NCBI RefSeq assembly: GCF_038005985.1 | Contig: NZ_JBBOUI010000001.1 | Span: forward strand, 2,686,001-2,750,000 | Origin: Solibacillus sp. FSL R7-0682 | GTDB taxonomy: Bacteria > Bacillota > Bacilli > Bacillales_A > Planococcaceae | DNA length: 64,000 nucleotides | Reading direction: 5' to 3' | In this document: piece by piece, positions 29,381-64,000 of the stretch | Layout of the letters: each line of letters opens with the position of its first letter | How positions within the stretch are numbered: position 1 is the first letter of the stretch | The notes under the pieces: generated by a model | What the model was told of the DNA's origin: nothing | Database searches by the model: none | What the model saw: only the letters and a program-made list of their open reading frames with translations | Translations under genes and position numbers: made by a program

Positions 29381-29653
29381 TTATTTTACAGCGTCTTTAA
29401 GCGCTTTACCTGGCTTGAAAGCCGGTACTTTGCTAGCAGCGATTTCGATTTCTTTACCAGTTTGTGGGTTACGACCTTTACGAGCCGCACGTTCACGCAC
29501 TTCAAAGTTACCAAAACCGATTAATTGTACTTTGTCACCCTTTGCAAGAGCATCTTGAATTGTATCAAATACAGCTTCAACTGCTTTAGAAGCGTCCTTT
29601 TTAGAAAGACCTGCAGCTTCAGCAACAGAGTTTACTAATTCTGTTTTATTCAC
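29381..29653 (-). CDS. hbs: DNA-binding protein HU
   Basis: 90-residue histone-like protein that bends and compacts DNA as a dimer. Nearly identical to HBsu: [45 protein letters not shown], and [16 protein letters not shown]. Start: a GTG at 29662 overlaps the perfect ribosome site AGGAGGTGA (29659-29667). The GTG at 29653, 5-6 nt past it, gives the canonical N-terminus and size. Followed by its own terminator. Confidence 0.97.
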
Positions 29654-29785
29654 ACCATTCACCTCCTCTCAAAGGGTCATGAATCTAAATCCTGTAAAAA
29701 GAGTAACACACTGAAAACCGCTACGCAACTGAATTCAACTATGTTTTCATGTTTATTTTTCTTTTTTCTTCAAAAAAACATAAAT

Positions 29786-29856: not shown

Positions 29857-31335
29857 TTAAATAATAAATGTGATTAATCCTCTTTCGCCCTCATTAATCA
29901 TTCTTTCCAACATGAGTCGCATACGATTTTTTGCACTTGAAGGAACGTTACGCATTTTGTAACGAATGCTTTCAGTCATTACTTCATGTAACGGCGTCCC
30001 AAATAATTGTGTTTCCCATAAAGCTCGGCGGTCATTATCATATGCATTTTGTAAATCCTTCAATAAATGCTGACTATGGAACTCAGATCCGATTAATGGT
30101 GAAAATTCTGCGTCCATATCTATTCTAATAATGTGGTACGAAGGAGCCGTTGCCTTCATCCTTACACCATAAAAGTTATTTTGTTGAATTAATTCCGGCT
30201 CACTTGGTGAAAATTCATCCATTGCCGGCAATGTTACACCATAACCATCTTCTTTTGCCTGTTGAATTGCTTCTCGGAATCTACTTTGTGCAGCCTTTGC
30301 TTCAGCAGCTTCCTTTATGAATAGTAACCAATCTTTTTTAGAATCAACTGGCTTTTCCAACCATTGTCTACACACATTTTTATACGTATCACCATCGACA
30401 GATACACGCAATGTTGCAATTCCCTGACCAGCGTCAATACTTTCTACATGACACTTCTCTACAAAATCGATATCTTGTAAAATCAAACTTGCCGTTTCAA
30501 CATCACGAAGTTTCATCTGACCATCTTCAAGTTGGTTAACAGCAAATGCTAACGTTTCATTTAACTCATGTCGATCATCTAGTACGTCTAACCAATCTGG
30601 TTTTTCAACTACGATTTGATTGACATTAAATTCATATAAAGCTTCCTGTAAAATTGCTGCAACGTCCATCGGTTGCAATTTATCAATCGACGTTGCGATA
30701 ACAGGAACTTCATATTGCTCCACTAAAGATTGACGAAGCAATAATGTATCATGGGCATTTGGTGTCGTGCTATTTAGTACGATAACAAATGGCTTTCCAA
30801 TTTCCGTTAACTGTTCGATAATTTGTTGCTCAGCCTTTTGCGCAGCTGATCGATTAATGCCGTTGACTGTACCATCCGTCGTTACAAGAACACCTATATT
30901 AGCATGATCTCGAATAACTTTGTCGGTTCCAATTTTTGCTGCCTCTTGAAACGCTATTGGCTCATTATGCCATGGTGTATGCACATATTTTGGACCAGAC
31001 TCATCTTCATACCCTTTTGCACCATCAATAACATACCCTACACAGTCTACAAGCCTAACTCGAAATGGAATTGAGTTTTCACCGATTTCGATTGTCGTTC
31101 CTTGTGCGGGCACGAATTTCGGCTCTGAGGTCATAATAACGGGTCCAGGTGAACTTTGGGGTAACTCGTCCATTGCGCGCATACGGTCTTCTGCATTTGA
31201 AATATTCGGTAAAATAACACCTTCCATAACCTTTTTGACAAATGTCGACTTCCCTACTCGAACGGGTCCTACAACGCCAATATAAATATCGCCATTTGTA
31301 CGTTCGGCTAGTTGTTGAAAAATTTGTTCGCTAAT
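29857..31335 (-). CDS. spoIVA: Spore coat morphogenetic ATPase SpoIVA (ATT start)
   Basis: Polymerising ATPase that forms the basement layer of the spore coat on the forespore surface. The first in-frame ATG (31227) lies after the Walker A loop, so it cannot be the start. Reading upstream gives a conserved N-terminus with AERTNGDIYIGVVG and Walker A GPVRVGKST (residues 23-31, Lys29), matching B. subtilis Lys30. The only plausible start is ATT at 31335, 7 nt past AAAGGAGG (31343-31350). An in-frame TAG lies 30 nt upstream, with no ATG, GTG or TTG between. Total 492 residues, the usual length. A sigma-E-like promoter precedes it. Confidence 0.93.
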   Translation of the reverse strand: MSEQIFQQLAERTNGDIYIGVVGPVRVGKSTFVKKVMEGVILPNISNAEDRMRAMDELPQSSPGPVIMTSEPKFVPAQGTTIEIGENSIPFRVRLVDCVGYVIDGAKGYEDESGPKYVHTPWHNEPIAFQEAAKIGTDKVIRDHANIGVLVTTDGTVNGINRSAAQKAEQQIIEQLTEIGKPFVIVLNSTTPNAHDTLLLRQSLVEQYEVPVIATSIDKLQPMDVAAILQEALYEFNVNQIVVEKPDWLDVLDDRHELNETLAFAVNQLEDGQMKLRDVETASLILQDIDFVEKCHVESIDAGQGIATLRVSVDGDTYKNVCRQWLEKPVDSKKDWLLFIKEAAEAKAAQSRFREAIQQAKEDGYGVTLPAMDEFSPSEPELIQQNNFYGVRMKATAPSYHIIRIDMDAEFSPLIGSEFHSQHLLKDLQNAYDNDRRALWETQLFGTPLHEVMTESIRYKMRNVPSSAKNRMRLMLERMINEGERGLITFII

Positions 31336-31342
31336 CGCAGTT

Positions 31343-31350
31343 CCTCCTTT
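31343..31350 (-). promoter_or_regulatory. Ribosome binding site that sets the ATT start of spoIVA
   Basis: AAAGGAGG on the minus strand, near-perfect complement to the 16S tail, with 7 nt to the ATT at 31335. No other initiation codon is at a usable distance in this frame. Confidence 0.85.
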
Positions 31351-31409
31351 AAAAGCATATAACTACGCGAATTTCCCCATTAGGAATACTTCATTGCACT
31401 GTCAAAACC

Positions 31410-62821: not shown

Positions 62822-64000
62822 TTACTTTTTCGATGGAATAATTATCCCAATAATAGCTCCTACGAGAGCAGGAACAATCCAACCTAACCCAATCGAATAT
62901 AAAGGTAAAAATTCTTTATAAAATTCAGCAATTGATGATAAAAAACCTATTTCGAAGGCAGGTACACTGTCAATTAATGCATTATATCCATCAATAATAC
63001 TAATAAAGAACGTAAATAAAATCGCCGTTGCAAAGACTAACTGTTTGTTTCTAAACAGCGGTCCAGCTAATGCAAGTAAAATTAATACAATTGCTAATGG
63101 ATATAAGAACATTAAAACAGGAATAGCAAATGTTATAATATTCGTTAAGCCAAAGTTAGCAATAGTAAACGATACAATACAAAGTACTACAACGAAAGTT
63201 TTATAGCTGATTTTCGGATACACTTCATTAAAAAATTCACTACAAGCAGTAATTAAACCAATACTCGTTTTCAAACAAGCTAATACAATAATAATCGCTA
63301 ATAAAATCGCACCGTATGACCCGAAATAATGATCAGCTACGGCAGCAAAGATTTGACCCCCATTATCATATGTACCTATTGCTGTTACACTTGATGCGCC
63401 CATATAGGCAATAAGCCCGTATATTAACATCATTAAGGCCATCGCAAAAATACCTGATTTCCAAGTTGCTTTAGCAATTTCCTTTTTATCTGTGATTCCT
63501 GTTCTTTTTATTGCATTAATGACGATAATACCGAACGCAAGGGAAGCAAGGGCATCCATTGTGTTATAGCCTTCTTTAAAGCCCGTCATAAACGCTTCAT
63601 TTATATAACTGCCTACAGGCTCAACGAAATTACCCATCGGTGAAAACAAACTAACAGCAATTAATATAAATAAAAAAATTAAAAATGCTGGGGTTAAATA
63701 TTTTCCGATATAATCCATAATTTTCGCTGGATTTAGCGAAAAATAAAAGACAATAGCAAAGAATATAAAGCTAAATACGGCGAGCCATATTTTCGCCTGC
63801 GATGGGTCAATAAACGGTTCAAATCCTACAACAAACGGCACCGTTGCCGTACGTGGAATTGCAAAAAACGGACCAATTGTTAAATAGAGTGCTAAGGCAA
63901 AGATGACACCAAATACTGGGTGCACTCGACTCGCTAAATCTCGTAAACCATTGCTCCCTGATAAGCCTATTGCTAAAATTCCTAAAAACGGCAATCCAAT
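62822..64000 (-). CDS. brnQ: Branched-chain amino acid carrier BrnQ (5' end outside the window)
   Basis: Sodium- or proton-coupled importer of leucine, isoleucine and valine (LIVCS family). The visible 390 or so residues carry about ten membrane spans and family stretches AIPRTATVPFVVGFEPF, LASLAFGIIVINAIKR and LKTSIGLITACSEFF. The N-terminal part and start lie beyond 64000, so this is a window-edge fragment and not a broken gene. The usual full length is about 440 aa. Confidence 0.92.
   Translation of the reverse strand: MGLPFLGILAIGLSGSNGLRDLASRVHPVFGVIFALALYLTIGPFFAIPRTATVPFVVGFEPFIDPSQAKIWLAVFSFIFFAIVFYFSLNPAKIMDYIGKYLTPAFLIFLFILIAVSLFSPMGNFVEPVGSYINEAFMTGFKEGYNTMDALASLAFGIIVINAIKRTGITDKKEIAKATWKSGIFAMALMMLIYGLIAYMGASSVTAIGTYDNGGQIFAAVADHYFGSYGAILLAIIIVLACLKTSIGLITACSEFFNEVYPKISYKTFVVVLCIVSFTIANFGLTNIITFAIPVLMFLYPLAIVLILLALAGPLFRNKQLVFATAILFTFFISIIDGYNALIDSVPAFEIGFLSSIAEFYKEFLPLYSIGLGWIVPALVGAIIGIIIPSKK

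Follow-up and report, generated by a model that had tools for sequence, protein, structure and literature searches.

The spoIVA gene of Solibacillus very probably starts at a rare AUU codon, and AUU or AUA is conserved at this position in related genera

The gene spoIVA, which bacteria require for spore-coat assembly, is present in one copy in the genome of Solibacillus sp. FSL R7-0682, and lies on the minus strand of the stretch of 64,000 nucleotides that was analysed (hereafter the window). When read from an ATT codon, its 492-residue product matches the TIGR02836 profile (spore_IV_A) with 531.4 bits, for a curated cut-off of 459.9, over profile positions 5–492 of 492, and the Pfam ATPase, middle and C-terminal domains (PF09547, PF20438, PF20439) are matched as well. 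The neighbours gpsA, a HU gene (window 29381–29662, behind spoIVA) and folE were all found. GpsA and FolE score above cut-off, and the HU-type match has an E-value of 1.4e-32, yet lies under the curated cut-offs of the HU models. The order of these neighbours is presumably the one known from B. subtilis. The features of the start region are collected in Table 1.

Table 1 Features of spoIVA and of its start region, in window coordinates (SD, Shine-Dalgarno sequence; g18, a genus of the same family)
Feature	Positions	Strand	Basis
spoIVA coding sequence, ATT to stop, 492 residues	29857..31335	minus	TIGR02836 and PF09547, PF20438, PF20439
ATT start codon of spoIVA	31333..31335	minus	ATT/ATA at the aligned codon in 48/116 family genomes; triplet invariance in g18
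Extended SD AAAGGAGG, 7 nt before ATT	31343..31350	minus	read directly; duplex -10.9 kcal/mol
In-frame TAG, upstream bound of the spoIVA frame	31363..31365	minus	read directly
Walker A stretch GPVRVGKST	31243..31269	minus	read directly; lost with first-ATG start
First in-frame ATG (456-residue reading), within the ATPase domain	31225..31227	minus	ORF reading

On the minus strand, nine codons (TTA TAT GCT TTT AAA GGA GGA ACT GCG) separate the in-frame TAG (31365) from the ATT (31335), after which AGC GAA CAA ATT TTT is read and the SpoIVA N-terminus ISEQIFQQLAERTNGDIYIGVVGPVRVGKST follows. No ATG, GTG or TTG occurs in this frame between the TAG and the Walker A loop, and for no standard codon within the frame's first 70 codons is the computed SD energy better than -1.5 kcal/mol, while the duplex of AAAGGAGG is placed with a spacing of 7 to ATT. 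The initial annotation, whose interval (31228–31350) comprises the SD, the start and the Walker A stretch of a gene that as a whole spans 29857–31335, had taken this ATT to be the start. It had further claimed that the protein read from it has 492 residues and includes GPVRVGKST, against 456 residues without the loop from the ATG at 31227. Both claims are borne out, the first by the lack of a standard start in frame, by the SD 7 nt away and by the retention of the codon in relatives, and the second by the Walker A motif of the N-terminal ATPase domain, which is present in the ATT reading and missing from the ATG one. The position of the start and its SD are established, and spoIVA of Solibacillus very probably starts at the rare AUU and not at AUG. 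Short ORFs are also found upstream (window 31308–31394, minus strand): one begins at ATG 31394 (MKYS), another at ATG 31380 (MGKFA, in frame and stopping at the TAG), and the ATG at 31358 opens a 16-codon ORF in another frame, which overlaps the spoIVA start.

General laxity of this genome about start codons is not seen in the 56 conserved ORFs of the 64-kb window (those with counterparts in G008, G250 or G049). The single ORF among these whose SD was flagged as directed at a non-standard codon is spoIVA, in which 41 conserved codons contain no standard start. The ORF at 62922–63203 is borderline: the SD energy for its ATT is -6.9, where -7 was needed for a flag. G008 is the sole relative that matches it (67%), in an alignment beginning 19 codons before the first standard codon, and the ORF is perhaps not a gene. 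Outside the window, infC has ATT AGC as its first two codons, preceded by GGAGGTGG, in all 30 family loci read, the host genome's among them, and because of this the host cells very probably use AUU as a start, as judged from the aligned loci. An ATG lies four codons later in 28 of these loci and is absent in the two from genus g2. An altered IF3 in the lineages with AUU or AUA was considered as well and provisionally set aside, as their IF3 sequences look alike by eye (25 of the 30 loci). A further frame of the host genome, near position 2841581, which from its N-terminus we take to be CcpN-like, has an in-frame ATA directly before ELNKRQ; a GTG lies 3 and an ATG 13 codons upstream of it.

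A SpoIVA match was found in 197 of the 261 genomes of the host family and in none of the other 64, and the start was tallied in 116 genomes, in which the aligned codon is ATT in 22 and ATA in 26 (48 together). Directly upstream of it there is no GTG in 46 of these 48 genomes; the two others, G009 (ATA) and G013 (ATT), both of the host genus, do have one, and translation may begin there. In the host genus (g1, 16 genomes) the codon is ATT in 14 cases, ATA in one and ATG in one (G015), so that the comparison with relatives suggested by the initial annotation does not return ATG throughout. The named Solibacillus species with ATT are S. merdavium, S. faecavium and S. palustris. Elsewhere in the family, ATT is found in 5/5 genomes of g11 (Metasolibacillus) and 3/3 of g19, and ATA in all 24 rows read of g18 (out of 25, the partial match of G244 being left out) and in the single row of g6. 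The rows read of g8 (6 of 32) and g2 (8/8) all have TTG. ATG is found in g9 (3/3), g14 (19/19), g15 (4/4) and g17 (18 of the 19 rows tallied out of 68, the remaining row having TTG), as well as in 6 of the 7 rows of g12, the seventh of which has an ATG one codon on (two of nine loci, L130 and L131, were left out as they do not contain the search motif). The 28 named loci comprise 6 with ATT, 19 with TTG, all from Lysinibacillus, and 3 with ATG that are also named Lysinibacillus (L021, L022 and L038). Genus g4 contributes one row, from G030, where AGT, flanked by an ATG on either side, is the aligned codon; this spoIVA (L152) is strongly diverged, and that of G028 (L153), which is partial with an internal stop, was left out of the tally. 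Conservation of AUU/AUA between species is established by these counts, and the start codon is, to judge from the alignment, kept across genera beyond chance. A weak start looks to be kept by selection. It is not obligatory for spoIVA, because ATG is found in G015, in g9, g14 and g15, in 18/19 of g17 and in 6/7 of g12.

The picture is broader than the one drawn by the initial annotation, which had missed that non-AUG starts of spoIVA are, going by the loci read, common far beyond the genus, AUU/AUA being an extreme form found in one branch. Seventy loci from 29 other families of the class were read (70 of 191 matching genomes, which are 211 less 20 family rows; 30 were the best-scoring and 40 were picked for genus spread), and their starts comprise 38 GTG, 25 TTG, 4 GTG that directly follow an ATG, 2 ATG and one unclear case. 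GTG or TTG without an ATG directly before it thus accounts for 63 of the 70, 9 of which have an in-frame ATG 2–11 codons farther upstream. These families have the same gene, a strong SD and a non-AUG start in common with the host, but TTG and GTG are ordinary alternative starts, unlike ATT and ATA. On this sampling, spoIVA looks to be mostly a weak-start gene. For two other sporulation proteins (loci L312–L341 and L282–L311), read in 15 family and 15 outside genomes, the start is GTG in 30/30 for SpoIIID (15 of the 30 SpoIIID matches, all in the family, are under the model cut-off) and ATG in 30/30 for SpoVT. Since the start patterns of spoIVA, SpoVT and SpoIIID differ by gene, the identity of the start looks gene-specific and old, that is, deeply kept. 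The HU gene was readable in 81 of 186 loci (ATG 41, GTG 39, TTG 1), and has GTG in 16/16 genomes of the host genus (L001–L016); outside the family it has ATG in 23/25, whereas inside the family GTG is found in 38/56. Because of these 38 family loci, a weak start is, as far as the loci indicate, not peculiar to spoIVA in the family, and the HU gene provides no clean contrast to it there.

The strength of the SD was compared among the start codons. In the 48 rows with ATT or ATA its energy ranges from -10.0 to -11.1 kcal/mol with a spacing of 6–7, in the 53 ATG rows from -7.7 to -11.3 (median -10.0) with a spacing of 5–11, and the medians for TTG and GTG rows are -10.9 and -11.2. As the TTG and GTG rows are equally strong, strong SDs accompany weak starts in general and do not single out AUU/AUA, in a comparison that ignores kinship.

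The genus g18 was used to compare the start triplet with ordinary isoleucine codons. In the 21 of its 24 rows that entered this comparison the start is ATA in 21/21, while of 29 other positions that are always isoleucine the codon varies at 28 and is invariant at 1, ATA making up 59 of the 609 isoleucine codons. Invariance of the exact triplet is established in this genus, and would not be expected for a codon read as ordinary isoleucine. In g1, 4 of 23 conserved isoleucine positions are codon-invariant; g11 says little by itself, because 23 of its 39 are invariant in a small set. Since ATA is fixed in g18 while 28 of the 29 positions vary, the start triplet itself seems to be under selection. 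A tree was built by a quick method from 117 SpoIVA proteins (109 of the 116 family rows and 8 of 30 longer outside loci; the fetched stretches of the 7 remaining family rows end before the stop). In this tree g1, g6, g9, g11 and g18 form one clade of 46 rows with a support of 98 (ATA 23, ATT 19, ATG 4), and g19 (ATT) adjoins g15 (ATG), apart from the main ATT/ATA clade. The start labels require at least 13 changes, two of which are one-row labels of unsure place (L149 and L152). On this tree, start identity tracks descent yet has changed repeatedly.

We consider it likely that spoIVA is translated from AUU and that a strong SD combined with a weak, IF3-discriminated start leads to a low dose of SpoIVA. 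The 16S rRNA tail would pair with the unusually strong SD, bringing AUU into the P site, to be read by initiator tRNA with a third-position mismatch. IF3 would be expected to destabilise these complexes so that only a fraction of the attempts proceeds, and each mRNA would yield SpoIVA slowly, the SD making its synthesis reliable. As SpoIVA is an ATPase that polymerises at the base of the spore coat, a limiting role of its dose is plausible. We further infer that initiation uses fMet, that its efficiency is low (about 10–30% of AUG in comparable S. aureus reporter sites), that IF3 discriminates against the start and that a low dose is of benefit; IF3 control of this start is plausible from precedent in other genes. 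The low-efficiency start proposed by the initial annotation, which would tune the amount of SpoIVA, is supported in kind. The strong SD could also largely offset the weak start, in which case SpoIVA output need not be low. A rather unlikely variant is that the AUU/AUA start makes translation of spoIVA respond to the condition of the mother cell's initiation machinery, where a shift in ribosome or IF3 levels, or in 16S rRNA modification, during sporulation would switch spoIVA on at the right time. If this were true, the start codon would be a developmental timing device tuned per gene (AUU/AUA/UUG/GUG for spoIVA, GUG for spoIIID and AUG for spoVT).

A different explanation for the weak start is tolerated drift: if little SpoIVA is needed, selection for AUG could have relaxed, and AUU and AUA would be accidents kept by descent. 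Descent does explain part of the pattern, as AUU/AUA is mainly confined to the well-supported clade of 46 rows, which includes the 4 ATG rows, with g19 apart from it. The triplet should however wander under drift, yet it is fixed in g18 while nearly all synonymous isoleucine codons vary, and GTG or TTG is kept in the 63 of 70 loci of 29 other families, against the general purifying selection for AUG described in PMC5622118. We therefore regard drift as improbable. It is very unlikely that the triplet belongs to some other overlapping element (an operator, a small-RNA target or an RNA fold), the weakness of the start being a side effect. The second codon, AGC, is likewise the same in all 22 genomes from g1, g6 and g11, which would fit such an element; the flanking bases however vary among g1, g11, g18 and g19 while ATT/ATA persists, and RNA structure at the start was rejected, as the predicted fold of the host sequence, the single one folded, is no stronger than its shuffles (z 0.65).

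Even less probable is a start elsewhere, at a TTG or GTG of some relatives or through a frameshift from the overlapping 16-codon ORF. In 17 of the 46 genomes without adjacent GTG, some TTG or GTG does occur in the 30 codons that precede the Walker A region, although it is sited upstream of the SD or within the conserved domain; the other 29 have no in-frame ATG, GTG or TTG there, and neither has the spoIVA frame in the window. The strong SD lies 6–7 nt before ATT/ATA in 48/48 rows, and the frameshift is unsupported, as the 30-nt leaders of 18 g18 loci contain no ATG. A base error or a single-strain mutation hiding a true ATG, for which the ATG of G015 in the same genus could be quoted, can practically be dismissed, since separate genomes carry ATT (14/16 in the genus, 5/5 in g11, 3/3 in g19) or ATA (24/24 in g18).

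For a low-dose AUU start, the closest comparison inside the same cells is infC, the gene for IF3, which has a non-standard start and is autoregulated. It resembles spoIVA in its third-position near-cognate start, and the context ATT AGC is common to spoIVA (window 31330–31335) and infC (L169) of the host genome. The two differ in that infC forms a feedback loop on IF3 itself, while spoIVA codes for a sporulation ATPase for which we know of no feedback. In S. aureus, cvfC1 (AUU) and ccpN (AUA) are described in PMC13009471 as non-canonical starts with an extended SD, identified by ribosome profiling and reporters. Reporters with such AUU/AUA sites reached about 10% of AUG expression when the cells grew in poor medium; in rich medium ccpN attained up to 30%. 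The AUA start of ccpN is also reported to be conserved in B. subtilis. The cvfC1 and ccpN starts share with spoIVA the AUU/AUA codon, the extended SD and conservation between species; they are however other genes, demonstrated by experiment, and the spoIVA start varies by lineage (AUU/AUA/UUG/GUG/AUG). The Streptomyces gene sigR has a conserved GTC start that is repressed by IF3, and the system is disturbed when a standard codon takes its place (PMC5472188). This start, too, is non-standard and conserved; it follows a strong SD (AGGAGGTG) and limits an important protein, but it is GTC, belongs to a sigma factor and was proven by start-codon and IF3 mutants, while spoIVA is known here from sequence. 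Because of the S. aureus and sigR precedents, spoIVA synthesis is most likely kept low by the start codon and reliable by the SD. The AUU start of E. coli pcnB is said, in the reference list of PMC13009471, to limit its amount; the start is that of spoIVA, but the E. coli gene has another function. In E. coli, mis-initiation at AUU reportedly becomes more frequent when the 16S methylase MraW is lost, and in B. subtilis a deletion of mraW suppresses spoIVA mutants through lower CmpA (PMC13317604). The AUU/AUA start of spoIVA was not named in the literature found by a search limited to open-licence papers.

A conserved AUU, and an AUA present in one genus in 24/24 rows read, add a key sporulation gene to the few third-position starts known in nature. 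Through its AUG, UUG, GUG, AUU and AUA versions, spoIVA forms a natural series with which one can ask whether selection acts on start strength to adjust dose. A gene finder that accepts just ATG, GTG and TTG would be expected to drop the ATPase loop of SpoIVA in the AUU/AUA species. The start of the other families is one codon farther from Walker A (codon -19 as opposed to -18), and it is this position that the GTG of G009 and G013 (L002 and L014) occupies; the GTG could be old or new, possibly a return to a stronger start.
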